From Oscillospiraceae bacterium (GTDB lineage Bacteria; Bacillota_A; Clostridia; Oscillospirales; Ruminococcaceae): a DNA stretch of 64,000 nucleotides. The DNA lies in assembly GCA_017829075.1 (NCBI GenBank), contig JAGAJA010000088.1, positions 1-64,000 on the forward strand, in the 5' to 3' direction. The notes under the pieces are model-generated. The model was given only the letters and a program-made list of their open reading frames with translations. It was not told the DNA's origin and did not search any database. The position numbers were made by a program, and so were the translations under genes. Within the stretch, counting starts at the first letter, position 1. Every line of letters starts with the position of its first letter. Below are positions 1 to 17,470 of this stretch, one piece after another.

Positions 1-114
1 TGCCTTACAGAACTGAAAGGGTATCAGGCCGCTGTCGGCAAGCCAGTCATCCAGCCCCGCCGTCCAAACAGCCTCCTGGACAAGGTGCGCTATATGTTTC
101 AGAAGATAATGTAA
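1..114 (+). CDS. C-terminal end of an unidentified protein (partial)
   Basis: An open frame enters from the left edge and stops at TAA 112-114, giving about 37 residues that end in [12 protein letters not shown]. Its composition ([11 protein letters not shown] near the left) reads like real protein, unlike the proline-rich translation of the next frame. I do not recognise the family. It ends 12 bases before the HTH gene, so the two could be one operon, for example a toxin followed by an antitoxin-like regulator, but that is only a guess from spacing. Confidence 0.35.
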
Positions 115-125: not shown

Positions 126-350
126 ATGCAAGCGTTCATTCCCGACATTGATTCCGACGAGGTAAAGAGCATAAGAAACTCTCTAAACATGACGCAGGTT
201 ATTTTTGCCGCTGTCATGGGTGTTTCCGTAAAGACCGTAGAGGCTTGGGAAAGCGGCACAAACACTCCGTCCGGAACAGCAAGAAGAATGCTTTATATGC
301 TGAAAACTGACCCGACTATCCCCGAAAAATTCAACCTCTATTGCAGATAA
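126..350 (+). CDS. Small HTH (XRE/HigA-like) DNA-binding protein
   Basis: This 74-residue protein is almost entirely one helix-turn-helix domain. The segment SLNMTQVIFAAVMGVSVKTV (residues about 19-38) is a typical XRE helix-turn-helix, followed by VEAWESGTNTPSG, the signature seen in HigA/NadS-type antitoxins and related regulators. The frame stays open to the left edge, but upstream residues look non-coding, so ATG 126 is preferred although it has no clear Shine-Dalgarno. It converges on the pilus operon and shares a terminator hairpin with it. Likely role: transcriptional repressor of a toxin-antitoxin pair or of the mobile element (inference). Confidence 0.65.
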   Translation: MQAFIPDIDSDEVKSIRNSLNMTQVIFAAVMGVSVKTVEAWESGTNTPSGTARRMLYMLKTDPTIPEKFNLYCR

Positions 351-356
351 GGCTAT

Positions 357-384
357 CCGCTCCGAGTATTCGGGGCGGTTTCTT
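357..384. terminator. Bidirectional terminator hairpin
   Basis: CCGCTCCGA (357-365) pairs with TCGGGGCGG (370-378), allowing one G-U pair, with a short loop and a following TTTCTTATT. It sits in the 39-base gap between the convergent HTH gene and pilus operon and can serve both. Confidence 0.6.
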
Positions 385-389
385 ATTCA

Positions 390-902
390 TTAAAACTTTG
401 CTTTCCATTCCGACTTTACCTCCAGCGTATAGCGCATTGGGGCAAGGCTTGACCATGCAAAATCATAGGGTATTTCAACCTCTATCGTTCCCTCAACGGA
501 GAATTTCTCTGCTGTGCTTGTGTCGCCGGGAGCGCGGGGAGCCGGGGTTACTGAAAAGGTAATGTTCTTTATCGTGCATTGTGCTATTTCGCCGTTGGAC
601 ATGGCATTATTCATATACTGCATGATTTGCGCTTTAGTCGCGGTATGTGATTCACGCCACACATAGCCGCCTGTGTTAGAATAGCTTGCTGCCTGTCCCT
701 CGCGCACATTCTGATATAGTTTCGCATAATTTGACACCGAAACATGAATGATAGCGTCCTCATACTTGTCGCGAATTGCTGCCGCCTCGATATTTATGCG
801 GATAACCTCAAAAATACCAAAGGCAAGCAGCATTACAACGATAACAATAACCGAGGTCATGACCGTAGAAAAGCCCTTGTTGGAGCGTAACCTTTTAAGC
901 AT
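390..902 (-). CDS. TadE/TadF-like pseudopilin
   Basis: 170 residues starting at ATG 902-900. The N-terminus has a short basic leader and SNKGFSTVM followed by a long hydrophobic helix (about residues 13-33), the layout of type IV/Flp pilins cut after Gly by a prepilin peptidase. The glutamate usual at +5 is missing (Met instead). The rest is an exported domain of the TadE-like type. Its start overlaps the upstream gene's stop by 8 bases, which implies translational coupling. A longer in-frame start at 971 is unlikely because it would overlap the upstream gene by 77 bases. It is the last gene of the Tad-like run. Probably a minor pilin; the exact subfamily is uncertain. Confidence 0.65.
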   Translation of the reverse strand: MLKRLRSNKGFSTVMTSVIVIVVMLLAFGIFEVIRINIEAAAIRDKYEDAIIHVSVSNYAKLYQNVREGQAASYSNTGGYVWRESHTATKAQIMQYMNNAMSNGEIAQCTIKNITFSVTPAPRAPGDTSTAEKFSVEGTIEVEIPYDFAWSSLAPMRYTLEVKSEWKAKF

Positions 903-1302
903 TTTTCCAGTACACCTCCGAGATACCGTTTGCGCTGGATGTAATTGTGATCGGGTGCCCGGTAAAAACAAAGAACGATAAGTCCACTTGTGTGGATACT
1001 GTCACGGTGAATGTATCGCCTATCTGTATCTTACCGTTTTTCGACCAGACAACGGTTGGGGTAATTCCACTGGTTTCGTTTAGCCGTTCAAGCCGTGCGG
1101 TGGTTTCGCTGCCTACTCTGCCGGCAATCTCTGCCTCACGGCAAAGCTCGTTCGCGTAATTGTTCAGAGTCATTTTCGTAAGGAAAACGGGGGCAACGGT
1201 GATTATGAACATCAGCATCATTACCATTATCATCACGAAAATCGTAACGCCGATATAGGTACTGCCTTTCTTTTCAGCAAGCCGTTTTATGTACTTACGC
1301 AT
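895..1302 (-). CDS. DUF4320-like, TadE-type membrane-anchored protein
   Basis: 135 residues starting at MRKYIKRLAEKKG (ATG 1302-1300, preceded by AGGAGG). A basic leader ending KKG is followed by one long hydrophobic stretch (VTIFVMIMVMMLMFIITVAP, about residues 19-38) and a small extracytoplasmic domain. This matches the layout of DUF4320 proteins that accompany TadA/B/C genes in Firmicutes mobile elements (recalled family, not searched). It is likely a pseudopilin processed by the peptidase encoded at 6177-6581. Like its neighbour it lacks the +5 Glu. Confidence 0.6.
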   Translation of the reverse strand: MRKYIKRLAEKKGSTYIGVTIFVMIMVMMLMFIITVAPVFLTKMTLNNYANELCREAEIAGRVGSETTARLERLNETSGITPTVVWSKNGKIQIGDTFTVTVSTQVDLSFFVFTGHPITITSSANGISEVYWKNA

Positions 1303-1312
1303 ACATACCTCC

Positions 1313-2260
1313 TTAAAAGCTGAACAGCGTACCAAAGCTGTCAAACATGGTTGTTCCGAGAACGACAACATAGAGGAGCAGCATTACGAACAGTAGAACC
1401 ATTGACAGCCTGTTGATTTTCGGCGGTATCTTCAGCGCAAAGTTGCGGAGTATCTGCTTTTGGTATTCGGAAAAACGATATATGAGCGTTTCCCAGTAGA
1501 CGTGCGTATCCGAGCCACGCGCCATTTCGATAAGTCCTCTTGTTACCTCGGAAAGCTGCGTAGAGCCTATTCTGCCCTCAAATCTGGTGATAGCAGCCTC
1601 CCAATTTGAAGAACGCATATCGGCTATGGTTATCTCTAATTCCTCGCGGAAATACGGTGAGAATGTGTCCTTGTGCTTTTCGAGAATGGAGAGGACATTG
1701 TGGTCGGTTTTTATCTCCTGCGCTATTGCACCGACAAAGCGCGGAAGATCGGTGTCTATCTGTTCTCGTTTCATTTTGATAGCCTCGGAGATTTTTTCCT
1801 GCGCATTTGTGTACTGTAACACGCCGAGAACAACCATGAGCAGAGCAAATATCACCGGAACAGCCTGTACATACTGATTGTCTATCATTGACGCGACAAG
1901 TGCGCCGAGGATATAAACGGGAATTCCGAGCAGAGCGTATGCGCCTGCCTTGACGATAGCTCTTGCCTCGTAAAGCTGCGGCGACATGGATATGTGCGCT
2001 ATTTTCAGATTAGCCTCTAACTGCTTTTGCCGTATATCCGACATTGGCAGCAGCTTTGACACAAACAGAGCCGCGTTGTTGTACATTTGCGAAAGCCCGT
2101 CCGGTGCGGGACGGTTGCGGGGTCCAATCGCTCTTATCGCCGCCGTTGTCTTTGAGGACGGCACTTTAAGCAGAACAAGCGCAAATGAATACGCACCTCC
2201 TGCAAAAAGCAGACAGGCGGCAAGCGCCATAGCTTTCAGAGAAATGTCAATTAAGCTCAA
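1313..2260 (-). CDS. TadC-like inner-membrane platform protein
   Basis: 315 residues with hydrophobic segments near residues 8-30, at about 108-155 (two helices) and at the C-terminus (about 284-306), separated by a cytoplasmic helical region. This is the type II secretion F (GspF/TadC) architecture. TadC pairs with TadB to form the platform that TadA drives during pilus assembly. It sits 5 bases after tadB-like 2266-3192, in the conserved order TadA-TadB-TadC. The sequence is diverged and identification relies on topology plus gene order. Confidence 0.75.
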   Translation of the reverse strand: MSLIDISLKAMALAACLLFAGGAYSFALVLLKVPSSKTTAAIRAIGPRNRPAPDGLSQMYNNAALFVSKLLPMSDIRQKQLEANLKIAHISMSPQLYEARAIVKAGAYALLGIPVYILGALVASMIDNQYVQAVPVIFALLMVVLGVLQYTNAQEKISEAIKMKREQIDTDLPRFVGAIAQEIKTDHNVLSILEKHKDTFSPYFREELEITIADMRSSNWEAAITRFEGRIGSTQLSEVTRGLIEMARGSDTHVYWETLIYRFSEYQKQILRNFALKIPPKINRLSMVLLFVMLLLYVVVLGTTMFDSFGTLFSF

Positions 2261-2265
2261 TCAGA

Positions 2266-3192
2266 TCACCTCTTATATTCAATGGGCTGGGTGTACTTGT
2301 ATGTGAGGGCAATAACGATAATGACCGTAACAGCTACTACGCAATTCACTATCTGACCGGCAAGCGTTTCTGTGAGAACAGCAAACCAGTCCGCGTTGAG
2401 GAAAAAAATCAGCGGATAATTCGCAAGGACAAGCCCTATCATGGTGAACACCTCTTTGCGCGGCTGCATTATCATGTTTTTCAGTTCCGCATTAACTATG
2501 CGAATATCCGAAAGACGCGCCGCCAAAGGCTGGAGTGAGAATTTCTGTTCGGAATTATCCTGGCACTCTATCAGCGTATCGCACCATTCGTGGAAAATTT
2601 CGTTATCAATCTCGTCCTTGAGCTGTTCGATAGCAAGTTTGACATTGGAGGAAATCATATCCACACGGGTGAGAAAGTTGATGAAAGCGTACTGTACAGG
2701 AGGGTTGATGTGGTCAATGGATTGTCTTACCGCATAGGCTATATCGCCGTTTGATATGTAATTCGTTGTGATGATGGACAACGCTGTTTCAAGTTCCTCC
2801 GCGATATGAGCCTTGTAGCTGGAAAGGAGCAGCTTAACATACACATACGGTATTACAAAAGCTGCGGCAATAAGCACTACTGAAATGAGAAGATTGTTGA
2901 ACAACGCACCAAGCAGCACTCCAACAACACCGCCGACAACCGCCGCGGTGATAAGCAGAGAAAACTTGTTTTGGGAATGCGTTGCCGCAAGAGCGTTCGT
3001 GATGTTGTCGATCATGCGCTGCATACGCGACTTTTTTATCTTGCCCTGCGTCACAAGTACCTTGTATTTAAGGCTGCGGTCACGGTGGAGCAGCGACATA
3101 ATATCATCTGTTATCCTCTGCGGAGAAAGTCCGAGAAGAATGACTACGGCGGCGGAAAGCAGCAGCGCCGCAAGCAGATAAATCACCTTCAT
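2266..3192 (-). CDS. TadB-like inner-membrane platform protein
   Basis: 308 residues. An N-terminal hydrophobic helix (residues 4-22) is followed by a cytoplasmic basic stretch, two central membrane helices (about 79-118) and a C-terminal pair (about 251-302). This is the GspF-like TadB topology. It lies 2 bases downstream of the TadA ATPase and 5 bases upstream of the TadC-like gene. Expected role: polytopic platform at the base of the Tad machine, where pilin or another substrate is handled. Assignment to TadB rather than TadC is by order. Confidence 0.75.
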   Translation of the reverse strand: MKVIYLLAALLLSAAVVILLGLSPQRITDDIMSLLHRDRSLKYKVLVTQGKIKKSRMQRMIDNITNALAATHSQNKFSLLITAAVVGGVVGVLLGALFNNLLISVVLIAAAFVIPYVYVKLLLSSYKAHIAEELETALSIITTNYISNGDIAYAVRQSIDHINPPVQYAFINFLTRVDMISSNVKLAIEQLKDEIDNEIFHEWCDTLIECQDNSEQKFSLQPLAARLSDIRIVNAELKNMIMQPRKEVFTMIGLVLANYPLIFFLNADWFAVLTETLAGQIVNCVVAVTVIIVIALTYKYTQPIEYKR

Positions 3193-3194
3193 AG

Positions 3195-4637
3195 TTATAC
3201 CCTCCCGTATATTTCAAGCTTGTCCTTCGGTACGCCGTTGTCGCGCAGGCGCTTCATAAAGTTTTCGGTGGGCGGATTGACCTTGACGTGCTTGCCGATT
3301 ATTCTCGCCGTTCCGTCCGGGTTACGCACCTCGTCAATAATATCGTAACGATAGAGGGTGCGGGTTTCGTACTTTCCTTTCTCACCCTGAATACATTCCG
3401 CTATTTCCATGATGTGGCGTGATCCGTCATCAAGCTGCTTGAGGTAAATTCCGATAGGGAATGCCTCTGTTACAAGTGAGAGAATAGTATCAAGCGGCAG
3501 AGAGTGTGCCTGCAGGCAGAGCGTTGCAAGGCGGGTGTATATCTGGTGTGTGGAGGACGCGTGTGTGGTCGTAAGAACGGTGTGTCCTGTTCGGGCTGCT
3601 TCCTGCGCCTGCCACGCTTCCTCGTTTTTCATTTCAGCAACGCAAATTGAGTTAGGGTGCATGGTAAGGCACATAGTAAGCAGCTTTGCTAATGTTACGT
3701 CCCTCGCCGGGTCATCGGTTTCCTTTGTGACGAGATGAAGAACGTCGTTGACAACATTACCGTTTTCGTCTCGCTTTACAAGGTCAAATTCTCTCACGGA
3801 TTTTTCAAGCGTAATCAGGCGCTTGTTGTTCGGATAGTTTGACATTATATCCGCCATAATGGTGGTCTTTCCTGAGCCTGTTTCACCGGCATAGCACTGC
3901 GAAATGCCGTGAATAAAGCAGGTCACAAGGAAATCGTATTCCTCCTCGCTGACCATGCCCGACTCGATAAACTGCTCGCGGGTTATCTTTGAGGGGTTTA
4001 CGATACGGATAGACGCGCAGGCACCGCGGGCATTGTCACAAATATCCGTATATCCTGCGGTTACACGGATATTTGAGCCGAGAAAACCTGTTGCGATAGG
4101 CTTTGAGCTGTCCCAAGTGATGTGATTGTGGTGCAGCAGACGTTTCAGCACGTCCACAAGATGTCCTGCGTCCTTGAAATGCTCCGCCTTGAAACGTGCG
4201 CCCTTTGCGGGAATAATCTCCACATCGTCCCAGCCGTTGATGTTTATTTCCTCTATATCCTTTCGGAGCAGCCACGGAGTAAGGATAGAATACTCTGCCA
4301 TTTCAATGTAAAGTTTGTCGGCTACCTCGCCCAGCGTCATATTCGGGACATAATAGTTGTTGTCCTTCATATACTGCTTGATAAGGCGTTTCATCATATC
4401 CTTTTTGTCGGCTTCGTAAAGCTCCACAGCGTAGTTTTCAGCCATGTGCTGCTGTACGCGGGAAAGAAGGGTGTCGAAAGGAATGAAGGAGCGTTCTATT
4501 TCCTTTACGCTTTTATCGGATATCTCAGAGAAATCTGACTTGTCCTTTTTCTTGCGGGATTTAGTTTCCGCAGCTTCCTTTACCTCCGCATATTCACCTT
4601 CGTTATCTGCGGTCTTTTTCTTGAAAAAACTGAGCAT
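3195..4637 (-). CDS. TadA/CpaF-family secretion ATPase
   Basis: 480-residue hexameric secretion ATPase of the VirB11/GspE superfamily. Walker A is GETGSGKTT (about residues 251-259). An N-terminal domain (about 45-200) includes EININGWDDVEI, typical of CpaF. Downstream are AEMKNEEAWQAQEAARTGHT (Walker B/Asp box region) and THASSTHQIYTRL with the His box. A charged, Lys-rich N-terminal tail precedes the family domain. It overlaps the TadZ-like gene by one base (ATGA). It would power pilus assembly or, in this context, possibly substrate transfer. Confidence 0.9.
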   Translation of the reverse strand: MLSFFKKKTADNEGEYAEVKEAAETKSRKKKDKSDFSEISDKSVKEIERSFIPFDTLLSRVQQHMAENYAVELYEADKKDMMKRLIKQYMKDNNYYVPNMTLGEVADKLYIEMAEYSILTPWLLRKDIEEININGWDDVEIIPAKGARFKAEHFKDAGHLVDVLKRLLHHNHITWDSSKPIATGFLGSNIRVTAGYTDICDNARGACASIRIVNPSKITREQFIESGMVSEEEYDFLVTCFIHGISQCYAGETGSGKTTIMADIMSNYPNNKRLITLEKSVREFDLVKRDENGNVVNDVLHLVTKETDDPARDVTLAKLLTMCLTMHPNSICVAEMKNEEAWQAQEAARTGHTVLTTTHASSTHQIYTRLATLCLQAHSLPLDTILSLVTEAFPIGIYLKQLDDGSRHIMEIAECIQGEKGKYETRTLYRYDIIDEVRNPDGTARIIGKHVKVNPPTENFMKRLRDNGVPKDKLEIYGRV

Positions 4638-5377
4638 TACTTCTTACCTCCGATAAGCGATTTTGCGAGCTTGTTTATTGCGTGGTTATATGCGCTGTCC
4701 GACACTCCGTTTCGGAGGATAGCCGCCTGATTGAACGCCTCGGCGGCGTGGGTGCTGAAAGGTATCTCGCCGGATATTCTGCCGAGGGCATTACGCATAG
4801 CGGCAACGTCCTGCTTGAACGAATTTCCCAGCGCAAGGGCGCGGATAAAGTGCTTGTATTGATACTGCTCACTCTGTAAAACAGGCTCCTGTGAGCCGTC
4901 AAACACAAGTCCGTTAATATCCGCGGTGAACAGCTCCACGGTCTTTGTTGCAGACATGATAGACCATGCTGTCATTTTTGAGGTGATAACGGTTGACATA
5001 CAATCAATTATCACATAGTCGGCGCTGCTGCGGAGATAGGAGAAAATCTGTGCAAGGCGCGTATCATCGGGCGGAGGGAAAGAATTCTCGTTCTCACGGA
5101 TATTGTAGCCAAGCACCATTATCTTATCAGTAATGGGCAGCAGATTTCGACGTAAGTCGGTTTCCTCAAACGAAACATTCGACAGGCACTTTCCGAGAGA
5201 ACCGTCAAACTTGCTTTCGTGCGGTGCAACAATAGGTATCAGCGGTTTGGTGGTATCAGTTCCGACAACGATAATATCCGCTTTCGGCTCAATGCGGGAA
5301 ATGTTGTGTGCAAGAGCAAGAGAGGTCGTTGTCTTGTATGCGCCCGAGCTGCCGTATATTGAAAAAATCTTACCCAA
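4637..5377 (-). CDS. TadZ/CpaE-like deviant P-loop ATPase
   Basis: 246 residues of ParA/MinD-like fold. The P-loop is GSSGAYKTTT (residues 9-18), which keeps the GxxGxxKT core but lacks the signature first lysine of MinD proteins. VVGTDTTKPL (about 36-45) and YVIIDCMSTV (about 119-128) match the switch and Walker B strands. TadZ/CpaE proteins locate the Tad machine in the cell. It is placed between CpaB-like and TadA, with the next gene overlapping its end by one base. A chromosome- or plasmid-partition role is less likely because of the gene neighbourhood. Confidence 0.75.
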   Translation of the reverse strand: MGKIFSIYGSSGAYKTTTSLALAHNISRIEPKADIIVVGTDTTKPLIPIVAPHESKFDGSLGKCLSNVSFEETDLRRNLLPITDKIMVLGYNIRENENSFPPPDDTRLAQIFSYLRSSADYVIIDCMSTVITSKMTAWSIMSATKTVELFTADINGLVFDGSQEPVLQSEQYQYKHFIRALALGNSFKQDVAAMRNALGRISGEIPFSTHAAEAFNQAAILRNGVSDSAYNHAINKLAKSLIGGKK

Positions 5378-6184
5378 TTATTCCACCTCGCTCTCTGTGC
5401 TTTCGTCATAAATCTCGGCGGTATTAAAAACCGCCTCTGTTGTTTCATAGTCAACTACACCGAGCAGCTCACGCTGGGCGGCAAGGTATTCGGCTTTATG
5501 TTCGCTGTCGCCGCGGCAGACAAATACTGCATGGAGCGTTGTGTTCTCGCACTCGGCAAGTTTGAGTGCCTGTGTGCGGTCCTGACATATCACGGTTATC
5601 GTTGCATAAAGCGCCTGTTCCTCATCATCGTCCTCGGCAGCATTTACCTGGTCTGCATTGTAGGTATCGTCCGAGCCGTTGTCCGCGGTAGTCGCTAAAA
5701 CCTCGATATACTGTAATTCATCGTAGATTATAGCCTCATCGTCATTGTCCTCGTTGACAGAGATTATCTGAATTATGTCGCCTGTCTGGAGCTTACCAGA
5801 AAGACCGTTAGCAAAGCTGCGTACTGTTACTGACATAGCGGTTTCGTTCACTCCAAGCTGACGGAGCAGAGTGTCCGAGGTGTCAATGGTGTCGGACAGC
5901 TTGTTTGCGGAGAATGTGTCGCCGGCAAACATAGCGGCTACCGTGTACTTGCCGACGATTTGTTCAGGGTCGGTGATGATATTATCGGGAAGATTGAGAG
6001 TGCCTACCTCAACGGCGGCAAGCATAGAGGGCTGTATCTGCGCTCCCTGGGGAACGTCCTCTTTGAGTCGGATAACGGTTGTTTTCTGTTCAAGCACAAC
6101 AGAAAACAGCGGCGTTATGCCAAAACAAAGAATGATAGCAAGCACAATGAGAATTATGCCGATCAGTGTACGATTTTTAAGCAT
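5378..6184 (-). CDS. CpaB/RcpC-like SAF-domain pilus assembly protein
   Basis: 268 residues from ATG 6184-6182. One N-terminal membrane helix (residues about 6-28) anchors an extracytoplasmic SAF domain that begins VIRLKEDVPQGAQIQPSMLA (about 37-56). A second repeat-like region includes LSGKLQTGDIIQIISV, typical of CpaB/RcpC. The start overlaps the peptidase gene by 8 bases. In Gram-negative Tad systems CpaB works with the secretin; no secretin is present here, as expected for one membrane. A longer start at 6241 would overlap the upstream gene by 65 bases and is rejected. Confidence 0.8.
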   Translation of the reverse strand: MLKNRTLIGIILIVLAIILCFGITPLFSVVLEQKTTVIRLKEDVPQGAQIQPSMLAAVEVGTLNLPDNIITDPEQIVGKYTVAAMFAGDTFSANKLSDTIDTSDTLLRQLGVNETAMSVTVRSFANGLSGKLQTGDIIQIISVNEDNDDEAIIYDELQYIEVLATTADNGSDDTYNADQVNAAEDDDEEQALYATITVICQDRTQALKLAECENTTLHAVFVCRGDSEHKAEYLAAQRELLGVVDYETTEAVFNTAEIYDESTESEVE

Positions 6185-6581
6185 AGAGAAAAACCTCCAA
6201 TAGAAAAACAACCGCATTAGCAGCGCAAATAAACGGTGCAAGCGGCATTTCTTGTTCTTTTTTGATGTGTGCGAATATTTTTGCTGAAATCAGCGCAAGC
6301 AGCACCGCAATAAATCCCGGAACAGCACCGAGCGCAAAGCCAAAGGCAGCGCACAATTTAACATCACCCATACCTATATCCGCTATTAGATTTGCTGCGA
6401 AAAGCGTTATAAATAAAGCAAGCAAGCCTGTTATTCTTGCTGAAAGAGATAGCTCATTCAGAAACGGGCTTGCTGCAACAATTATGAACGGGGCAAAGTT
6501 GCTTATTTCGCGGGTGCGTATATCTTCTGCGGATATATGGGTAAGGTATATGGTGAGTATCACCGATATTGTTAAAACCAT
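6177..6581 (-). CDS. Prepilin peptidase (CpaA/TadV, A24 family)
   Basis: 134 residues, almost all membrane, about four helices. Both catalytic aspartates of A24 proteases are visible: the first in SAEDIRTREISN (about residues 18-29), the second in IGMGDVKLCAAFGFALG (GxGD, about 69-85). It cleaves leader peptides of type IV-like prepilins such as the two pseudopilins at 390-1302. The small size and lack of an N-methylase domain match CpaA/TadV. Its start lies inside the end of the upstream gene (10-base overlap). Confidence 0.88.
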   Translation of the reverse strand: MVLTISVILTIYLTHISAEDIRTREISNFAPFIIVAASPFLNELSLSARITGLLALFITLFAANLIADIGMGDVKLCAAFGFALGAVPGFIAVLLALISAKIFAHIKKEQEMPLAPFICAANAVVFLLEVFLYA

Positions 6582-6898
6582 TTTGATTTGTACACATACC
6601 GGTATCGCCGCTGTGAACGGGCAAAGCGCACCATGTTTTTAACCTGTCCCACTACGGAAAGGCGGGTAATGGGGTCTTTGCGCGTCATCATAATGCTGCC
6701 GGCAGCGCCGATCATCATTGTGAAAACCAGAGCCGCAAGGTTGCCCGTGATAAGCATAAACACAGCCGCGACAACGCCAAAGCAGGCTATTCCGATAAAG
6801 CATTGTTTAAGCTCCGTTCTGCCAAAGCCGACAAAGTATTCCGGCTCGATGTTAAGTCCGTAGGGAATGTATAGCTTTCTGCGATTTTCGTTTTCCAT
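6572..6898 (-). CDS. Small two-helix membrane protein, VirB3/PrgI-like
   Basis: 108 residues. A soluble N-terminus (IPYGLNIEPEYFVGFGRTEL) precedes two adjacent hydrophobic helices (about residues 35-72) and a basic tail rich in Arg and Tyr. This size and topology match VirB3/PrgI-type subunits of Gram-positive type IV secretion systems, usually encoded next to VirB4, but no VirB4 follows here. The assignment rests on topology and place only. It lies between a 71-residue membrane protein and the prepilin peptidase, exactly at the junction of the T4SS-like and Tad-like halves. Confidence 0.5.
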   Translation of the reverse strand: MENENRRKLYIPYGLNIEPEYFVGFGRTELKQCFIGIACFGVVAAVFMLITGNLAALVFTMMIGAAGSIMMTRKDPITRLSVVGQVKNMVRFARSQRRYRYVYKSKWF

Positions 6899-6911
6899 AT
6901 TACACCGCCTT

Positions 6912-7127
6912 TCAGGTAAGATAGCTGACGATTATGTTCTCGATTAAAAACGGGAGCTGCGCTATTACCGCAAAAACAACCGTGTTCTTTAAGCGTTTCT
7001 TGTACTGCGGAGCCTCGTCCGATTCGTGCGTGAGCTTCAGAAAAATGTATATGGCTCGCATAGCAAGTCCGCTGTTTATAGCTATCTGAAGATAGCTGCT
7101 GAGCTGGTCTATCTGTGATGTGTCCAT
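6912..7127 (-). CDS. Unknown 71-residue membrane protein
   Basis: I do not recognise this protein. It has an N-terminal amphipathic or weakly hydrophobic segment (YLQIAINSGLAMRAIYIFLK) and a hydrophobic C-terminal helix (TVVFAVIAQLPFLIENIIVS) separated by a basic loop. It sits 9 bases after the TrbL-like gene and 13 bases before the VirB3-like gene, so it is almost certainly part of the transfer apparatus. A pilin-like or inner-membrane scaffold role would fit (inference). Confidence 0.5.
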   Translation of the reverse strand: MDTSQIDQLSSYLQIAINSGLAMRAIYIFLKLTHESDEAPQYKKRLKNTVVFAVIAQLPFLIENIIVSYLT

Positions 7128-7136
7128 ACTTTCACC

Positions 7137-7985
7137 TTACTTTATTGCTCCGCGCACCATTTGTGCGACTCTGACCGTCTGGAAGAATGTATTTCCTGCC
7201 GTTCCGCCGCCTGTCGGCACAAGAAATTCACGCAGGATACGGGGCGCTGTGGTTGCCGCAAACATACAAGCAATACCCCAAGGAATATTGGTTATATCTA
7301 TCACGTTTGACGATAGCAGGAATGCAAGTCCTATTTTTAACAGCATTATCTGCACGATTGTAGTCACAAACGCTCTAACAAACTGTGTGACATAGTTGCG
7401 GAAAATTCCCTTGTCGTTTTCAAGCAGACCTAAACACGCAAGCGGTATTCCGGCAACCATTACCTGCATCTCCACTCCCCTTGACATAAACTGAAACAGT
7501 AATATGAGATAGAAGATGAAGAACACAAGGCAGGCGAGTACCGGAACAATACCCAGAGAAGCTATGCCTGTCAAGATGGTAGCTGTGTAGTTGGTATCTG
7601 CTCCAAGTTGTGATAGAATTGTGGTCGTTACACTATCGCAAACCTCCACGAAAATATCGTATATCCAGCGGAACATAAGCGCCGTTGCGATTGCTTTCAC
7701 GAAATTCACAAGCAGCATTGTAGGGTCGGTGTCCGGATTACCGTCCGTCCATAGCACATACAAGTCAAAGCCTTTTTTGAGAAATTTCAGCACCATAAGC
7801 GATAGTGCAAGCGAAAACGCCATATCCGAAACGGTTGTAAAGAAATTAACGCCTGTGCATTGCGTCATCATCTCGTCTGCATGGAAAACCATGTCGTACA
7901 GACCGCCAAGCACCAATTCATTCATGAAAGTGGTTACTATTCCGGTTATGAGTGCAACAACAAGCGTTATAATGATAAATACCAT
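7137..7985 (-). CDS. TrbL/VirB6-like polytopic conjugation protein
   Basis: 282 residues starting at ATG 7985-7983, chosen because AAAGGAAA lies about 9 bases upstream. There are about six to seven hydrophobic segments, with the conserved-looking hydrophilic loop between the second and third (YVLWTDGNPDTDPTMLLVNF). The C-terminus carries FLVPTGGGTAG. This is the architecture of VirB6/TrbL proteins, which form the inner-membrane channel for DNA or protein substrates in type IV secretion. The flanking VirD4-type gene and small membrane proteins support this. The exact subfamily is not certain. Confidence 0.7.
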   Translation of the reverse strand: MVFIIITLVVALITGIVTTFMNELVLGGLYDMVFHADEMMTQCTGVNFFTTVSDMAFSLALSLMVLKFLKKGFDLYVLWTDGNPDTDPTMLLVNFVKAIATALMFRWIYDIFVEVCDSVTTTILSQLGADTNYTATILTGIASLGIVPVLACLVFFIFYLILLFQFMSRGVEMQVMVAGIPLACLGLLENDKGIFRNYVTQFVRAFVTTIVQIMLLKIGLAFLLSSNVIDITNIPWGIACMFAATTAPRILREFLVPTGGGTAGNTFFQTVRVAQMVRGAIK

Positions 7986-8010
7986 AAGCGTGTTTCCTTT
8001 CCAAAGCAAG

Positions 8011-8065
8011 AGCCGCAGGGGTGAACGCTCGGCGGAAATGACCGAGGCGTCACGCCTCTGCGGCT
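8011..8065 (-). promoter_or_regulatory. Branched hairpin between pilin-like and TrbL-like genes
   Basis: AGCCGCAG (8011-8018) pairs with CTGCGGCT (8058-8065), enclosing GAGGCG (8044-8049) pairing with CGCCTC (8053-8058, sharing one base with the outer arm). There is no T-run, so it is not a simple terminator. It could be an mRNA processing or stabilising structure that lets the upstream pilin-like message accumulate. Confidence 0.4.
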
Positions 8066-8096
8066 AGCTTTATGCGGATTGGATAGAGGGTGGGTA

Positions 8097-8333
8097 TCAG
8101 CCCATGTTGAACATGGATGTAACCTTGTCCTCGGTAGAGGGCATGATAACGTTGTTCATCAGAGCGATCAGTCCTACCAGCAGAATGCCGCCGAGAACGA
8201 CGCCGATAATGATAACGATAGCGTGTTCGGAAACGGAGCCGCGGGTTTCCTCAATCTTGTTCTTTGCTGCCGCAACAGCCATAACTGCCTTGTTGATTGC
8301 CTTAGTCTTGATAGCGTTGATCTTGTTCATCAT
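8097..8333 (-). CDS. Pilin-like small membrane protein (DUF6133-like)
   Basis: 78 residues preceded by GGAGGAACAAAACT. A basic amphipathic N-terminus (many Lys/Ala) is followed by RGSVSEHAIVIIIGVVLGGI, a hydrophobic helix (about residues 38-60), and a short C-terminal tail ending TSMFNMG. The combination resembles DUF6133 proteins of clostridial conjugative elements and, loosely, Flp pilins (GxxxE followed by a hydrophobic helix). It is likely a structural subunit made in large amounts. The family is recalled, not searched. Confidence 0.6.
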   Translation of the reverse strand: MMNKINAIKTKAINKAVMAVAAAKNKIEETRGSVSEHAIVIIIGVVLGGILLVGLIALMNNVIMPSTEDKVTSMFNMG

Positions 8334-8362
8334 AGTTTTGTTCCTCCAAAAATTGTAGTAGT

Positions 8363-8731
8363 TTATCTTTCAGGCTCGTCGAAAGACGGAGCGTTGAAAT
8401 CCTGTGTGTTATCTGCGGTGTTGGTATTGGCATTCGCATTTGCGCGGAGCTGTTTCATGAGCGTTGAGTAAGCGCCGATTACAACATTGCTTATCTCGTC
8501 GCGCAGCTCTTTGGTCGTGGGGAAAGCCGTATCAACATACTTCTTATCGCCGTTCTGGTCGGTGTAGGACACGTTCGGCATATTGACGAAAATGCCCTTT
8601 GAACCGTTCATCACGGAAAGACCTCTCACAACGAACGAATCGTCGAGGGTAATGCTGACCGTAGCAAGACGGTTGCCGTTCGGATTGTTTGAGAGCTTAA
8701 TGTCCTTTTCGGGATTGCAGCTTATCTTCAT
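8363..8731 (-). CDS. SpoVG-family protein
   Basis: 122 residues with a strong AAAGGAGG site. VSITLDDSFVVRGLSVMNGS (about residues 26-45) and GIFVNMPNVSY match the SpoVG core, in which a short alpha/beta domain binds nucleic acid. The C-terminus is longer than usual and ends in an Asn/Thr/Ala-rich acidic tail. SpoVG acts in sporulation and cell division regulation in Bacilli, but here it lies inside a transfer operon between the VirB2-like and pilin-like genes, which suggests control of transfer-gene expression (inference). Confidence 0.8.
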   Translation of the reverse strand: MKISCNPEKDIKLSNNPNGNRLATVSITLDDSFVVRGLSVMNGSKGIFVNMPNVSYTDQNGDKKYVDTAFPTTKELRDEISNVVIGAYSTLMKQLRANANANTNTADNTQDFNAPSFDEPER

Positions 8732-8806
8732 TGTGTTCCTCCTTTGCTGCGATATGTGGTTGCGGTGATCGTTTTGTCGGGGGAGGTATCCACGAAAGGC
8801 GTAACA

Positions 8807-9154
8807 TTATGTACCACCTCCAAAGTAACCTGTGATTACCGTAAGCAGAGAGGTTGCTACTACCGCACCGATAGTGGAAACTACTGCGGTAATAATGCGG
8901 TTATCCCACTTTTTTCTGTCCATTTCGTCTGCGGCAGAACGCCTGATACAGAAATAGACAATGCAGACCGTGCCGACTACTGCGGCAAGTCCCAGCAGAA
9001 TAGTTGACGCATCATTCAGCAGGTTTTTTAAGCCTGTCGCAACGACAGAGCCGCCTAAACCGCCGCCATCGTCAGCGAAAGCGGTAACGCTTAACGCTGC
9101 TGTCATAACCGCCGCCGTAACAGCGGAAATGATACCCTTGACCTTACTTGTCAT
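8807..9154 (-). CDS. VirB2/Maff2-like membrane subunit
   Basis: 115 residues. An N-terminal signal peptide ends near VTAFADDGGG, followed by two hydrophobic helices (about residues 49-71 and 85-108) separated by a charged loop RRSAADEMDRKKWDNR. This is the layout of VirB2/TrbC-type pilin and of the Maff2 family found beside VirD4 in clostridial conjugative elements. It is 14 bases after the coupling protein gene. The ribosome site AAAGGAGG precedes its start. Confidence 0.65.
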   Translation of the reverse strand: MTSKVKGIISAVTAAVMTAALSVTAFADDGGGLGGSVVATGLKNLLNDASTILLGLAAVVGTVCIVYFCIRRSAADEMDRKKWDNRIITAVVSTIGAVVATSLLTVITGYFGGGT

Positions 9155-9168
9155 CTTTTTCCCTCCTT

Positions 9169-11247
9169 TCAGAACATAGAATTGTGACCTTCGTTTTCCG
9201 CATTAACAGCTTTTCGCGCCTTTGCAGCTAATTCCAGCCACGGTTTCCATAATTTTATCTCAATCTCGCCGTCATAGCTTGGTCTTGCATTTTCATCAAG
9301 CTCAATTAACCGCTGATTATGCTTTTTGTCGCCCAGACCGAGCATATCGTTGAATGCCCATTTGGAAATATCCGGCGACTCCATAACGGCGGGAGAGTTG
9401 TTAGAGATAACGAGCGAATATGGACGTTCAAAACCGTTCATTATTTCCTCCGCAGTAAGCAGGCTGCGCTCTATCAGCGACACATTCACGGAGCTGGACG
9501 GGTTTGAATACTTTTGTGCGGAGCTGCCGAGTGAATAGGTTAGGGTTGTGTACTTTCCCATTGCTTCGGAAAGCTCCTTGTTGGTTTCAATATCGGTGCT
9601 TTGGAGATATATCCAATAGCGGCAGTTTCCCTTTGCTATGTTGGCAACCTCCTCGCCATACACAAGTTTAAGCTGTGCAAAGCTCTGCAAAAACAAATTC
9701 CACCTTATTCCGTAGCCGCGCGACACCGTAAGTTTCTTTTCAAAGGTTTCAATCTTTGAAAAGTTACCAAATTCGTCCAGCACGAAATTAACACGATAGC
9801 GCAGGCGGTTTCCTGTTTTCTTCGCAGCAACAACAAGCAATTCATACTGCTGTGCCACAAGTATTGTGGTGATAGGATAGAATGTTTCACGCTCATCGGG
9901 AAGAACATAGAACAATGCTCTTTTCGGCTCTGTACCGAACGATGCAAGGTCAAAATCTGACTTTGATGTAATCCGGTAGGTGGTCGGATTGGTGAACAGA
10001 CGGAGCGTTGTGAGTGCCGAGGTATAAAAGGACGCTGCCGTTTTATCGGGAGCGACATTTGCGATAGCAAGCGTTTGCCGTGCGGGGTGGTTGTCCGGAA
10101 TACTGCGGAGGTACTTTTTGTACTGTATCTCTTTCTCTCCCTGCGCGGGAACAGACATATTGCTGATAAATTCATAGACATTCGTGAGATTTTGGTATTC
10201 GGGGCGGTCTTTGTTATCGTAGACAACTGCCAGAATGGACGCAACGATGATAGCCATTTCTCCGTTGGTCCAGATAGGCTCGCCCTTTTCGCTTTTTTCT
10301 ACAAGAATGTTCACCATATCCCATGCCTTTTCGCTTGCTGTGTTTATCTCACCTCTGTTTACCGCGTCGATTATGGGCTGCAAAGGATTGTAGCACATAG
10401 ATTTCCGCGGCGAATTAAAGTCGATAACGCAAACGGTATAACCGAGCGTTTCAAGGAAGGTGTGCATATAGTGGTAAAGCTCGCCTTTCGGGTCGGAAAC
10501 CACAATACCTTCACCGGCAAGAGCCAACGCACACAATGATTGAAGAACAAGTGTTCGTGTTTTGCCACAGCCAGTCGAACCGATAGTCATTGTGTGAACG
10601 TCATCGGTGATACAGCTTATCTGCTCCTTGATTGCTGTTGCATTTCTACCGAGGACTATCCCCGCCTCATCAAAGACATTGCCTTTTATGCCTATGGGCT
10701 TTGCATGGTAATACTGTCCGTTGTCAACAGCTTCAGCTCGCCGCAAACCTTCCGCAAGCAGCCGCTTTATTTTATCGTCTGCAAGAAACAACACAACGGC
10801 GGGAAATATTCTTGCTTTTTCATCATCGGGCATAAACCACGCAGAACCATGCTGCTTTTGTCCGTAGGGTTTTGGTATCTCAATTTTCGGAGTGACTTGA
10901 TACATTTCCGCTTGATAGGGTTTGAGAGAGCTAAAAAAGTAGACAAAGCAGACTAACGCCGCCATAGTTTCAAATATCCAGAACAGCTTGCGCGGCTGTT
11001 CGGCGGAGAACGCTCCGTCTATCAGCGAAAATATATTGAGGGAGTTCCTCTCTGAAAGGCTCCGGTGAGTGAATGAGTCGTTGATAAGATTTGCAAGGAA
11101 CAGTGCGGCGAATGTGCCGATAATCACAAACAAGCAGCATAGGAACAGCTTGTGAGAATTGTCCTTTATCAACCGTTTCAACGCACTTTTTAACCGCTGT
11201 GGAAACTGTGCAATATCCTCGCGGCAGTTTCTTGTGTTTCGTTTCAT
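9169..11247 (-). CDS. VirD4/TraG-type type IV coupling protein
   Basis: 692-residue coupling ATPase. Two N-terminal membrane helices (about residues 34-55 and 88-108) anchor a large cytoplasmic ATPase. Walker A is GSTGCGKTRTL (about 222-232), followed by GIVVSDPKGELYHYMHTFLE and VNFVLDEFGNFSKIETFEKK (Walker B, DEFGN), the hallmark of VirD4/TraG proteins. It recruits the relaxase-DNA complex to the transfer channel. It overlaps the upstream gene by 4 bases (ATGA). Its length fits the clostridial (Tn1549-like) TraG group. It is the clearest evidence that the block is a conjugative element. Confidence 0.93.
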   Translation of the reverse strand: MKRNTRNCREDIAQFPQRLKSALKRLIKDNSHKLFLCCLFVIIGTFAALFLANLINDSFTHRSLSERNSLNIFSLIDGAFSAEQPRKLFWIFETMAALVCFVYFFSSLKPYQAEMYQVTPKIEIPKPYGQKQHGSAWFMPDDEKARIFPAVVLFLADDKIKRLLAEGLRRAEAVDNGQYYHAKPIGIKGNVFDEAGIVLGRNATAIKEQISCITDDVHTMTIGSTGCGKTRTLVLQSLCALALAGEGIVVSDPKGELYHYMHTFLETLGYTVCVIDFNSPRKSMCYNPLQPIIDAVNRGEINTASEKAWDMVNILVEKSEKGEPIWTNGEMAIIVASILAVVYDNKDRPEYQNLTNVYEFISNMSVPAQGEKEIQYKKYLRSIPDNHPARQTLAIANVAPDKTAASFYTSALTTLRLFTNPTTYRITSKSDFDLASFGTEPKRALFYVLPDERETFYPITTILVAQQYELLVVAAKKTGNRLRYRVNFVLDEFGNFSKIETFEKKLTVSRGYGIRWNLFLQSFAQLKLVYGEEVANIAKGNCRYWIYLQSTDIETNKELSEAMGKYTTLTYSLGSSAQKYSNPSSSVNVSLIERSLLTAEEIMNGFERPYSLVISNNSPAVMESPDISKWAFNDMLGLGDKKHNQRLIELDENARPSYDGEIEIKLWKPWLELAAKARKAVNAENEGHNSMF

Positions 11248-11687
11248 AATTCAGCTTCTTCTGTAACGGTTTCCTCTGTCACAACGGTTTCCTTAACGAC
11301 GGTCTGATTACGCTGTTCATCAACAAATTGGGTTAGCTTACCGACAGCGTTATTGCAGATAAGCGCCTCGTTCATGGAAACGTCATCGCTCTTGTAATCT
11401 TCGAGCAGCTTTATTTCGCCGTTACTGCGCTTGACGATGTCTACTGCGCCAACACCGAACCGTCCCCCATAAAGGTGAGCAGCGTCCTTGTGTACGGTGT
11501 AATCAACACCGAGCAGAATGAGTATGTGTTCGGGGCTGTGGGCATTTCTCTCCTTGAAAAGTTCCATCGCCTCATCAAGCGACAGTTTTCCGGCGAACGG
11601 CTCATAGATTGTTGAGGGTGTCCCACCCGGTTCGTGACTTAACACATAGAATGAAAAATCGCATATCTTTTCTATTGTAACTGCCAT
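11244..11687 (-). CDS. Unknown protein at head of transfer operon
   Basis: 147 residues starting at ATG 11687-11685, preceded by GGAGGAAAACAAA; a start 15 bases further up lacks such a site. I do not recognise the family. The protein is soluble with no membrane segment, and its C-terminal 25 residues are an acidic Val/Thr/Glu-rich repeat (VVKETVVTEETVTEEAEL). It overlaps the VirD4 gene by 4 bases. Similar-sized, uncharacterised proteins often precede traG in conjugative elements. Confidence 0.55.
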   Translation of the reverse strand: MAVTIEKICDFSFYVLSHEPGGTPSTIYEPFAGKLSLDEAMELFKERNAHSPEHILILLGVDYTVHKDAAHLYGGRFGVGAVDIVKRSNGEIKLLEDYKSDDVSMNEALICNNAVGKLTQFVDEQRNQTVVKETVVTEETVTEEAEL

Positions 11688-11705
11688 TTTGTTTTCCTCC
11701 ATAAA

Positions 11706-11742
11706 CAGAAAAAGGCACGATTCTTTCTCAAAAATCGTGCCT
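11706..11742 (-). terminator. Rho-independent terminator after zeta-like gene
   Basis: AGGCACGATT (11713-11722) and AATCGTGCCT (11733-11742) form a perfect 10-bp stem. On the minus strand it is followed by TTTTTCTG. It lies upstream of the transfer operon, so it separates the zeta-like gene from the operon or acts as an attenuator. Confidence 0.8.
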
Positions 11743-11750
11743 ATAAAAAT

Positions 11751-11818: not shown

Positions 11819-12427
11819 TTACAGTTCTTCTTCGTCCTCGGAGTGTTCGCAGGACTCAAAGAAATTCTGCTCGGCAAATCTTCCCTGAAGTTCACTGAGC
11901 CACTCAGGAGCATAGTCGCCTATTCGCTTTATTTCTCCGTTCAGATATTCCGCTACGCAGACAAAGCCGTTTTCATTGTCATAAAACTGCGCCGAGTCGC
12001 AATACGGAAGAATTTTAAGGAGATCGTCAAAGCGGTGAGAAAACCTGCGGATAACGTCCTCGGTGGGAATATCGTGTCCGCCTTTCTGCACACGGTTGGC
12101 GATGCGGCGAACACTTTCATCTGCGCTTTCAACCGCAACATAGTATAAACCGATACGGTAATTCAGCTCTCTTGCGGTCTTTATGGTACGCAGCGTTCTG
12201 TAACCCGAAAGAGTGGTTTCCTGTGTGAAATTCAGACCGTTTTCAAGGCACATATTTATGCGGCGAACAGCCTCTCTTGCACCATCTATCTTGTTGCCGT
12301 TTTTTTGACGGGTTATGCTGTCTGTATCTATAATACTGCCGAGAGAGTCGGTATCTCTTGCGAGAACACCCGTTAAGCTGCTTTTTCCGACTCCGTTAAC
12401 GCCGGCGATAATGGTATATGTTTTCAT
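11819..12427 (-). CDS. Zeta-toxin-like P-loop kinase
   Basis: 202 residues of the zeta toxin/AAA kinase type. The P-loop GVNGVGKSS (residues 9-17) is followed by IIDTDSITRQ and by TQETTLSGYRTLRTI, matching zeta/PezT proteins that phosphorylate UDP-N-acetylglucosamine precursors. The start has GGAAGGTGATC upstream and a good promoter at 12452-12480. No epsilon-like antitoxin gene is adjacent on either side. The acidic C-terminal tail (SEDEEEL) is unusual. It could be a solitary zeta-like kinase with another substrate. Confidence 0.75.
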   Translation of the reverse strand: MKTYTIIAGVNGVGKSSLTGVLARDTDSLGSIIDTDSITRQKNGNKIDGAREAVRRINMCLENGLNFTQETTLSGYRTLRTIKTARELNYRIGLYYVAVESADESVRRIANRVQKGGHDIPTEDVIRRFSHRFDDLLKILPYCDSAQFYDNENGFVCVAEYLNGEIKRIGDYAPEWLSELQGRFAEQNFFESCEHSEDEEEL

Positions 12428-12451: not shown

Positions 12452-12480
12452 AGTATAACACATTCGGCGGAGATAGTCAA
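12452..12480 (-). promoter_or_regulatory. SigmaA-type promoter for zeta-like gene
   Basis: On the minus strand TTGACT (12480-12475), a 17-base spacer and TATACT (12457-12452), 25 bases before the start codon. Confidence 0.7.
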
Positions 12481-12626
12481 GCTCCGCAATATTCACGCTG
12501 GCAGCAAGTTTTTGCTTGCAAAACCCTATAAGTTCGGCACTTGTGCCGACGAAAAGAGTGCCATCGGTGATTTTTTCTTTCAGTATATAACTATCAGAAA
12601 AGTGAGGGTGCGGTGATACGGTTATC

Positions 12627-12830
12627 CTAGAGGATATCGGTTTGGGTGCTCTCTGCTGCGCTCGGGGACGATTCTGCCGGCTTAGATGATGTCACAGCGG
12701 AAGTCTGTGCGCTCTGCGACGATATCGCCGACTCCGAAGAGTCTGTCACCTCGGAAGATGGTGCGCTCCCGCAGGCTGAAAGCATACAAATGAGCATAGC
12801 TGATGTCAAAAAAATACATGGTTTTTTCAT
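12627..12830 (-). CDS. Short Ser-rich lipoprotein, probably truncated
   Basis: 67 residues. A type II signal peptide with lipobox LSAC (Cys at about residue 20) is followed by a Ser/Ala/Thr-rich linker and then a stop. AGAAGGAG lies at a proper distance before ATG 12830-12828. Linkers of this kind normally lead into an extracellular domain, which is missing, so the gene seems cut short. It lies at the junction of the conjugative block and the prophage remnant, where a deletion or insertion is plausible. Confidence 0.6.
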   Translation of the reverse strand: MKKPCIFLTSAMLICMLSACGSAPSSEVTDSSESAISSQSAQTSAVTSSKPAESSPSAAESTQTDIL

Positions 12831-15637: not shown

Positions 15638-15648
15638 GGAGGTAGTTT

Positions 15649-15888
15649 ATGTATAATTACACTATATGCTATAATTTCAGCTATGAATATTTTAAGCGAG
15701 CTTGCAAAGCTCTTGAAGAACGCATTCCTAATATTAAAAAGGGGCGTGCTTCACATGATGTTGACGACTCTCGGACGCAGGAATATCTGGCTGACGGAAA
15801 TCATATTACCGTGTACAATGATTATCCGACTGATGTTGTGTGCATTAAGTCGGACAAAGATATTGAGAAGTATCTCATACAGCAATAA
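15649..15888 (+). CDS. Candidate immunity protein for the capsid-borne toxin
   Basis: 79 residues with GGAGG just before ATG 15649, only 11 bases after the capsid gene. It is AT-rich like the C-terminal module and unlike the flanking phage genes, as expected if the two moved together. It is small, acidic and has no membrane segment. I do not recognise the family. Immunity function is inferred only from position, size and shared composition; it could also be an unrelated small phage protein. Confidence 0.55.
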   Translation: MYNYTICYNFSYEYFKRACKALEERIPNIKKGRASHDVDDSRTQEYLADGNHITVYNDYPTDVVCIKSDKDIEKYLIQQ

Positions 15889-15893
15889 AATCC

Positions 15894-15918
15894 GCACTCC
15901 CAGCAATGGGGGTGCAAT
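15894..15918 (+). terminator. Terminator-like hairpin
   Basis: GCACTCC (15894-15900) pairs with GGGGTGC (15909-15915), followed by AATTTTAT. A near-copy follows the next gene. Confidence 0.5.
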
Positions 15919-15949
15919 TTTATACCCTAAACCAGAAAGGAGCATTCCC

Positions 15950-16120
15950 ATGATGCACAATCGTTATCTCAAAAACCGCTTTGCGGCGGTTGTCGCAATA
16001 GCAACGGTGGCAACAATAGCGATGAACGCTTATGCAAACCTGCCGTTCCATGCGCTTGACCCGCCGGACAGTGGTTTCAAAACATACGTCACTGCGATCC
16101 AGCGGCGTAAGCACAGATAA
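15950..16120 (+). CDS. Small exported or membrane peptide
   Basis: 56 residues, ATG 15950 preceded by AAAGGAGC. Basic N-terminus, a hydrophobic helix (FAAVVAIATVATIAMNAYA, residues 11-29) that could be a signal peptide ending at AYA, then a short soluble tail. No family recognised. It lies between two terminator hairpins and so may be a separately expressed cargo gene. Confidence 0.45.
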   Translation: MMHNRYLKNRFAAVVAIATVATIAMNAYANLPFHALDPPDSGFKTYVTAIQRRKHR

Positions 16121-16122
16121 TC

Positions 16123-16147
16123 AGCACTCCGAATGGGGTGCTTTTTA
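16123..16147 (+). terminator. Rho-independent terminator
   Basis: AGCACTCC (16123-16130) pairs with GGGGTGCT (16135-16142), loop GAAT, then TTTTTATAT. Confidence 0.7.
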
Positions 16148-16183
16148 TATACCTTAAATCATTTTTTACAGGAGGTTTTACAC

Positions 16184-17065: not shown

Positions 17066-17470
17066 ATGAAAATAGTGGATAATCTCCTTCAGCCTGCCAG
17101 AGAGCAGGAGTTGGCGGCTCAGGCGTGTATCAGCCACATATCCCGGCTTCAACGTATAATTGATCGATTCGCTTCATGTGAAGGCAGCAACCGCGAAGTG
17201 ATGATCGAAACGCTGGATAAGCTCCGGGAAGCCGAGGAGCAGCTAAACAGGCATATTGACCGTCTGGTAGATTACCGAGAAAAGGCTCTGAAATATCTTG
17301 AAAAGCTGACCGGCGAGGAATATGCCGTTATTTACAGATACTACATCAAGGGCGAAAACTGGCAGAAAATCGCTGCTGAAACTTTTATGAGCGAGCGCAG
17401 AGTATATCTACTGAGGTCATCAGCCCTTAATATACTTGAAACATTCTATGAACAGGAGGGTAATAATTGA
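17066..17470 (+). CDS. ArpU/RinA-like phage late regulator (DUF1492 type)
   Basis: 134 residues. GGAGGTGACCGG lies just before the start. A helical N-terminal half (coiled-coil, residues about 10-80) is followed by LTGEEYAVIYRYYIKGENWQ and KIAAETFMSERRVYLLRSSA, a sigma-region-4-like helix-turn-helix. Such proteins activate late gene transcription in phages of Gram-positive hosts. The frame is intact, although neighbouring genes are decayed. It overlaps the amidase start by 4 bases. Confidence 0.75.
   Translation: MKIVDNLLQPAREQELAAQACISHISRLQRIIDRFASCEGSNREVMIETLDKLREAEEQLNRHIDRLVDYREKALKYLEKLTGEEYAVIYRYYIKGENWQKIAAETFMSERRVYLLRSSALNILETFYEQEGNN

Follow-up and report, generated by a model that had tools for sequence, protein, structure and literature searches.

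Why do the genes of a Tad pilus lie inside a conjugation operon? The question is raised by the minus-strand genes at positions 390–11702 of a 64,000-nucleotide stretch of Oscillospiraceae bacterium DNA (GenBank assembly GCA_017829075.1, contig JAGAJA010000088.1, positions 1 to 64,000 of the forward strand; the whole stretch is referred to as the window). As read from the open reading frames (ORFs), these genes form one tight run, from a VirD4-type coupling ATPase through to two pilin-like proteins. The earlier note on this DNA had described a single run joining type IV secretion system (T4SS) parts to a Tad set, and this was confirmed by open co-oriented genes, Pfam matches and tight spacing. 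We consider it moderately probable that the run is part of a Gram-positive VirD4/VirB4-type conjugative element in which an integrated Tad pilus makes contact with the mating partner, much like the type IVb pili of R64 or PAPI-1.

For comparison of gene order, genome contigs were scanned with the TadA alignment, which yielded 280 relatives, and the best 80 of the 280 were read using profile models built from the window and close relatives, which distant members can escape. Nesting, i.e. TrbL_4 and VirB3 upstream of TadA, was observed in 51 of the 80 TadA loci. Tad genes that always form a separate unit, the situation that the earlier note had set against its own proposal, were thus not what was seen. 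The usual order was VirD4, VirB2, DUF6133, TrbL, a 71-amino-acid protein, VirB3, A24 and CpaB, followed by TadZ, TadA, TadB, TadC, DUF4320, a pilin-like protein, VirB4N and VirB4C, with departures in some loci (A24 located elsewhere, inserted genes). An arrangement repeated with one gene order across dozens of genomes is not a product of chance. Hosts of TadA relatives include Clostridium, Alkaliphilus, Fusibacter, Desulfosporosinus, Pseudobacteroides, Gemmiger, Eisenbergiella and Paenibacillus, and Clostridium manihotivorum CT4 has two nested loci. A Tad cassette inside a conjugation operon, as the earlier note had proposed, is therefore supported as a conserved architecture.

On a TadA tree of 86 rows, the nested state required 9 changes (shuffled mean, 26.7), with several long branches. 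A single origin of nesting was rejected, as the nested loci were clustered yet did not form one clade on this tree. Over 35 nested loci, TadA distances correlated with those of VirD4 (r 0.88), TrbL (r 0.92) and VirB4N (r 0.93; permutation p 0.001), host phylogeny not being removed from these values; T4SS parts compared with each other gave r 0.87–0.95. Judged by these distances, the Tad and T4SS genes diverge jointly.

The closest relative of the window was locus L006, from a metagenome-assembled genome of an uncultured Clostridia bacterium (G001), with 97.8% identity to window positions 138–11745 (11.6 kb). In L006, VirB4 starts 3.2 kb past the last Tad gene on the same strand and is split into two overlapping genes, 17422–18111 (229 amino acids) and 18108–19937 (609 amino acids), whose products match the Mbov_0397 VirB4 model at 93–287 and 285–888, respectively, under its cut-off. 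VirB4-containing transfer genes thus adjoin the Tad block, the finding that the earlier note had named beforehand as speaking against a replacement of VirB4 by TadA. All 12 genomes or records that were reached via relatives contained a VirB4-family match (in G003 a distant one only, E 5e-15). VirB4N was found downstream in 43 of the 51 nested loci, and the remaining 8 offer no more than 0.9–8.1 kb of sequence on that side. TadA as a VirB4 substitute was rejected on these grounds. The note's statement that VirB4 is missing holds for the ORFs of the window but not as a property of the system: the window stops 389 bp past the last Tad gene, and since VirB4 stands beside the block in L006 and in relatives, its absence reads as an effect of where the window ends. 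Split VirB4 genes were also seen in relatives and in Exiguobacterium and Sulfobacillus plasmids. In L006, VirB4 is followed by a large protein that, looked at for a VirB1 cell-wall hydrolase, had no Pfam match, and a "lysin" label for this protein was dropped for lack of Pfam support.

Between the window and L006, the ratio of nonsynonymous to synonymous substitution rates (dN/dS) was 0–0.10 in those Tad genes that differ (TadA, 0.02; TadZ was identical). SpoVG was excluded from this analysis, as its two copies fail codon-by-codon alignment.

Of 19 nested loci (18 genomes), 17 have a relaxase gene (PF03432) approximately 0.9–6.4 kb upstream of VirD4 and co-oriented with it, and TadA and relaxase share a contig in those 17 loci. 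One of the 17 relaxases (G304) scored just below the family cut-off, and the distance is approximate in two loci that end within VirD4. Where a genome had more than one relaxase match, the entry, made by hand, was mainly the match close to the locus. No relaxase was found upstream of VirD4 in L050 and L067, or in the genome of L006 by PF03432 or PF03389. Near-identical elements occur in different genera: those of Gemmiger An87 and Clostridium methylpentosum were 96.4% identical over 21.3 kb.

For gene content, window proteins were scanned against Pfam and matches were judged against curated cut-offs. All named genes were open and co-oriented, at the following places:

11244..11702, minus strand: 152-amino-acid protein that opens the run; L006, L007 and L008 have relatives in the corresponding position; no confident Pfam match.
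9169..11247, minus strand: VirD4-type coupling ATPase of the CD1115 family (PF02534, 183 bits; NF045973, 316 bits, cut-off 250).
8807..9154, minus strand: VirB2-like T4SS pilin of the Mbov_0395 family (PF18895, 30 bits, cut-off 26.6; NF045849, 42.2 bits, cut-off 40).
8363..8731, minus strand: SpoVG-domain protein inside the operon (PF04026, 67 bits); the L006, L007, L008 and L011 contigs have it in the corresponding position.
8097..8333, minus strand: DUF6133 protein of 78 amino acids (PF19629, 43 bits), candidate Flp-like major pilin within the T4SS part.
7137..8009, minus strand: TrbL/VirB6-like channel protein (PF19597, TrbL_4, 296 bits).
6912..7127, minus strand: 71-amino-acid membrane protein between TrbL and VirB3; same-place relatives in nested loci; no Pfam match.
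6572..6898, minus strand: VirB3/PrgI-like protein, by a weak PrgI match (below cut-off) and position.
6177..6581, minus strand: A24 prepilin peptidase, TadV type, 134 amino acids (PF01478, 43 bits; GMGD motif).
5378..6241, minus strand: CpaB/RcpC (PF16976 and PF08666 above cut-off).
4637..5377, minus strand: TadZ-like ATPase, by a weak AAA_31 match (E 0.0045, below cut-off) and position.
3195..4637, minus strand: TadA/CpaF ATPase (PF00437, 74 bits; CpaF and VirB11 structure matches).
2266..3192, minus strand: TadB-like membrane protein, by position and predicted membrane spans.
1313..2260, minus strand: TadC-like membrane protein, by T2SSF matches in its family and position.
895..1371, minus strand: DUF4320 pilin-like protein (PF14208, 106 bits), whose family shares the GEGxxD signal of DUF6133.
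390..971, minus strand: second pilin-like protein, weakly TadE-like (TadE at E 0.34 only; one membrane span; conserved position).

Between VirD4 and the last pilin-like gene, the 14 intervals separating neighbouring genes ranged from -77 to +87 nucleotides with starts as called. At the T4SS–Tad junction, where the genes had been said to overlap or nearly touch, the VirB3-like and A24 genes indeed share 10 nucleotides; VirB3–A24 spacing was ≤62 nucleotides in 29 of 50 nested loci. Matches above curated cut-offs were obtained for VirD4, the VirB2-like pilin, TrbL_4, Peptidase_A24, RcpC/CpaB, SAF, T2SSE (TadA) and DUF4320. The VirB3/PrgI-like, TadZ, TadB and TadC assignments are weaker and are based partly on position and relatives. 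PrgI was matched in 6 of 18 members of the VirB3-like family (best E 8.7e-5) and T2SSF in 2 of 20 members of the TadC family (best E 3e-5). Profile comparison of TadB with TadC gave a weak match (11.8% probability), and the TadC and VirB3 profiles had no match among solved structures. The proteins scanned from this run included no secretin (RcpA); secretin loss in Tad systems of monoderms is described in passages of PMC6668835. A promoter scan was at chance level (15 sites against a mean of 17.0), and terminator-like sites (21 against a mean of 13.7) were not used as evidence.

Wherever VirB2 was seen in a nested locus (41 of 41), DUF6133 lies between it and TrbL. Seven T4SS loci lack a canonical nested Tad set (G073, G150, G055, G202, G143, G208 and G249, the last three with a divergent block); there the VirB2–TrbL gap of 11–42 nucleotides leaves no room for DUF6133. 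At separate Tad blocks DUF6133 usually adjoins the Tad genes. Members of the family carry G at the predicted -1 position (60/69) and D or E at +5 (65/69), followed by a hydrophobic stretch; the same signal is present in the DUF4320 family (G at -1 in 69/71, D or E at +5 in 66/71). In the DUF6133 protein of the window the acidic residue is one place closer to G. Tyr at +6 is not conserved in DUF6133, and Gram-positive Flp-like pilins without it are described in excerpts of PMC3244431. The AlphaFold model of DUF6133 consisted of a leader helix and a long helix at 35–75 (mean predicted local distance difference test score (pLDDT) 77), that of DUF4320 of a long helix and a sheet (mean pLDDT 80). 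No mention of DUF4320 or DUF6133 was found in the open-access literature searched. By its placement and processing signal, DUF6133 is a candidate Flp-like pilin.

Among solved structures, the closest relatives of TadA were CpaF (E 4e-34 over 77–447) and VirB11 (E 3e-24 over 232–411), and against the VirB11 model TIGR02788 it scored 116 bits (cut-off 250). Over its length, TadA is closer to CpaF than to VirB11.

For T4SSs with other Tad contexts, VirB4C was searched in 291 genomes of the class, and 15 genomes, including G001, were found at E 1e-100 or better. The Tad set was nested in G001, G022, G154 and G097. A divergent Tad-like block lay between VirB3 and VirB4N in G143, G208 and G249; in G066 such a block precedes VirB4N, on a contig that does not reach back as far as VirB3. 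In G202 and G055, Tad was on the same contig outside the T4SS cluster, and the contigs of G123 and G034 were too short for reading Tad context. This VirB4 subfamily is thus often, though not always, accompanied by Tad. Profile comparison of the divergent block (2 or 3 copies) gave probabilities of 94% for TadA, 84% for TadB, 54% for TadZ, 34% for TadC and 15% for CpaB, with two small ORFs unmatched. A very divergent Tad-like block was located at 3699–11585 of L133, and also in L132 and L135, in the same VirB3–VirB4N slot; none of the scanned L133 block proteins had a Pfam match over cut-off.

Some Tad blocks of this clade had no T4SS in the flanks examined. Almost identical blocks without nested T4SS were seen in L074, L077 and L080 (hosts Oscillospiraceae CE91-St43, Anaerotruncus colihominis and Flavonifractor plautii). 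The Anaerotruncus colihominis block was 99.5% identical over 21 kb, that of Flavonifractor plautii 99.1% over 13.7 kb and 95% over 7.3 kb, a sign of recent transfer between genera. A TrbL_4 search in plasmids gave no match, and viral contigs held no TadA relative in two scans with TadA or its alignment. Four human-stool records labelled "Bacteriophage sp." (MT836463, MT835617, MT837158 and MT837079) may be conjugative elements rather than phages, because they encode TadA relatives (40–44%) or this VirB4 (50%).

The copy in the window may be rearranged or incomplete. Window 1–114 (plus strand), directly next to the Tad/T4SS block, is the end of a tet(W) tetracycline-resistance gene; it codes for the C-terminal 37 residues of the protein, which share 97% identity with the best plasmid copies. 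Alignment with L006 starts at 138, within an antitoxin-like gene that L006 carries whole and that is interrupted in the window. Window 11600–11745 and 12478–12629 match the L006 contig at sites 10.2 kb apart, so that 0.73 kb of the window occupies the place of 10.2 kb in L006. A zeta-toxin-like kinase gene (11819–12427, minus strand) lies inside this 0.73 kb. Genes for a phage minor capsid protein 2 and a scaffold-like protein (13979–16636, plus strand) adjoin the element in opposite orientation, and from approximately 18.3 kb on the gene content of the window resembles that of a chromosome ([FeFe] hydrogenase, RNase J, DnaB, FtsH, PFK).

In the mate-contact reading, a secretin-less Tad pilus cassette sits between virB3 and virB4, with the DUF6133 gene between virB2 and trbL. 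VirD4, VirB4, VirB6 and VirB3 would move the DNA. The A24 peptidase would process DUF6133 and the minor pilins, which TadA, TadB and TadC would polymerise into a Tad pilus for drawing in or retaining the recipient cell, and nesting might keep both machines in step. Of the readings, such a division of labour makes the smallest demand on the evidence. It is favoured because of the nesting with VirB4 downstream, the short VirB3–A24 spacing in 29 of 50 loci, the placement of DUF6133, joint divergence, low dN/dS in the Tad genes, the upstream relaxase and near-identical elements across genera, and because a second, divergent Tad-like block fills the same slot in G143, G208 and G249.

Several observations weigh against it. 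In the window itself, no ORF of at least 50 amino acids was related to the VirB4 of L006, and no relaxase was found among the Pfam-scanned ORFs, a subset of all ORFs. Of the 29 TadA loci outside the nested group, 16 had at least 9 kb upstream without TrbL and VirB3 (13 had short upstream flanks), and in the plasmids read, from Terrisporobacter, Clostridioides, Oscillospiraceae, Sulfobacillus and Exiguobacterium, the T4SS cluster did not include the Tad-like genes. No Tad was seen near VirB4 in G073, G150 and G285 (in G285, within 20 kb upstream); because G073 and G150 have no linked Tad, Tad is not essential to the whole VirB4 subfamily. Spacing was also loose in places: VirB3 and A24 were 291–3436 nucleotides apart in 21 of the 50 nested loci, and the last pilin-like gene came within 13 nucleotides of VirB4N in only 4 of 43 (L007, L008, L012 and L044), the distance being 0.5–6.3 kb in the others. 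Tyrosine integrases were searched with PF00589 in 8 genomes, serine recombinases not being searched; none was found on the nested-locus contigs of G001, G002 and G299 or within 100 kb of the nested locus in G301, and the integrase was approximately 100 kb away in G304 and 43–62 kb away in G298, G305 and G314. None of the 21 members of the TadB family matched Pfam T2SSF. Neither the model nor the sequence of DUF6133 gave anything convincing among solved structures, and the pseudopilins matched by the DUF4320 model had middling Z values (5.4 and 5.1) and were interspersed with unrelated entries.

A hybrid machine, in which TadA would be the VirB11-type motor of the T4SS, the Tad platform part of the DNA channel and the Tad filament the conjugative pilus, is a minority possibility that we hold tentatively. 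It draws on the membership of TadA in the CpaF/VirB11 ATPase superfamily, on the nesting between VirB3 and VirB4, and on the universal lack of VirB11 in Gram-positive T4SSs according to sections of a 2025 review (PMC12857230), but TadA is nearer CpaF over its length, a full Tad set is present, and T4SSs of the same VirB4 subfamily occur without linked Tad genes in G073 and G150. That TadA might also serve as the T4SS motor is possible and would be more novel than a mate-contact pilus. We regard as unlikely that the Tad block is passenger cargo that serves adhesion of the host cell and plays no part in transfer: adhesion is an established function of Tad pili, and Tad systems often move horizontally (excerpts of PMC5696575 and PMC6668835), and same-clade blocks stand apart from T4SSs, but the block keeps the same slot and order inside core transfer genes from Clostridium to Paenibacillus, a pilin gene lies between VirB2 and TrbL, and the cassette diverges jointly with the T4SS. 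A competence-like Flp pilus for DNA uptake, modelled on Micrococcus luteus, whose transformation requires tad genes (PMC4322843), is highly improbable, as VirD4, VirB4 and relaxase point to export, no search for competence genes having been made. Next to no credence is left for TadA in the place of VirB4, for which the VirB4-free window spoke and against which the downstream VirB4 of L006 and the nested loci stands.

Tad and T4SS genes on one element are already known. The thin pilus of the IncI plasmid R64 and the pilus of PAPI-1, which stands alongside VirB4/VirD4, are type IVb pili, not Tad pili. These elements likewise unite a pilus of the type IV superfamily with a conjugation machine on one mobile element, the pilus aiding transfer of R64 and being essential for that of PAPI-1, but their hosts are Gram-negative, and the genes of IncI plasmids form two clusters (sections of PMC12857230). 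Sulfobacillus pL15, pY0017 and an integrated element of Kr1 bring together CpaF/TadB/TadC-like, relaxase, TraG-like and VirB4-like genes, described in excerpts of PMC6803676 as a conjugation system with T4SS and type II secretion system (T2SS) homologues; in pY0017, however, the T2SS-F gene lies approximately 11 kb upstream of VirD4, and VirD4–TrbL–VirB4 has no such genes inside. Linear plasmids of Cutibacterium acnes carry tad together with VirB4-family and other transfer-like genes, and appendages were visible by microscopy; they are actinobacterial, and FtsK-domain and TcpC-like genes stand in the locus upstream of tad (passages of PMC5696575). The T4SS of the Mycoplasma integrative and conjugative element type is alike in that the VirB2-like protein of the window is over the Mbov_0395 cut-off and the L006 VirB4 matches Mbov_0397 best, and differs in that this VirB4 is split and scores 373 bits against the 590-bit Mbov_0397 cut-off and that a Tad cassette is carried. 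We take the Mycoplasma type (Mbov_0395, Mbov_0397) to be probably of the MPF_FATA class. No report of the nested Tad-in-T4SS arrangement was found in titles and abstracts of the open-access literature, and the main text of the 2025 review has no words beginning with "tad" or "flp" (PMC12857230).

Gram-positive T4SSs are described in sections of PMC12102498 as lacking major pilin genes and making contact via surface adhesins. A Tad cassette, if the mate-contact reading is true, would supply the T4SSs of many Firmicutes with a contact pilus and an ATPase of the VirB11 superfamily, and a Gram-positive conjugation system would gain a pilus of the type IV kind. The hybrid machine, if true, would be one interleaved gene cluster kept across Clostridia and Paenibacillaceae. 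The locus raises the directly testable question of type IV filament use in Gram-positive conjugation. The arrangement is carried by gut and soil bacteria, and its recurrence in so many relatives suggests that bacteria use Tad pili to help pass DNA to their neighbours.

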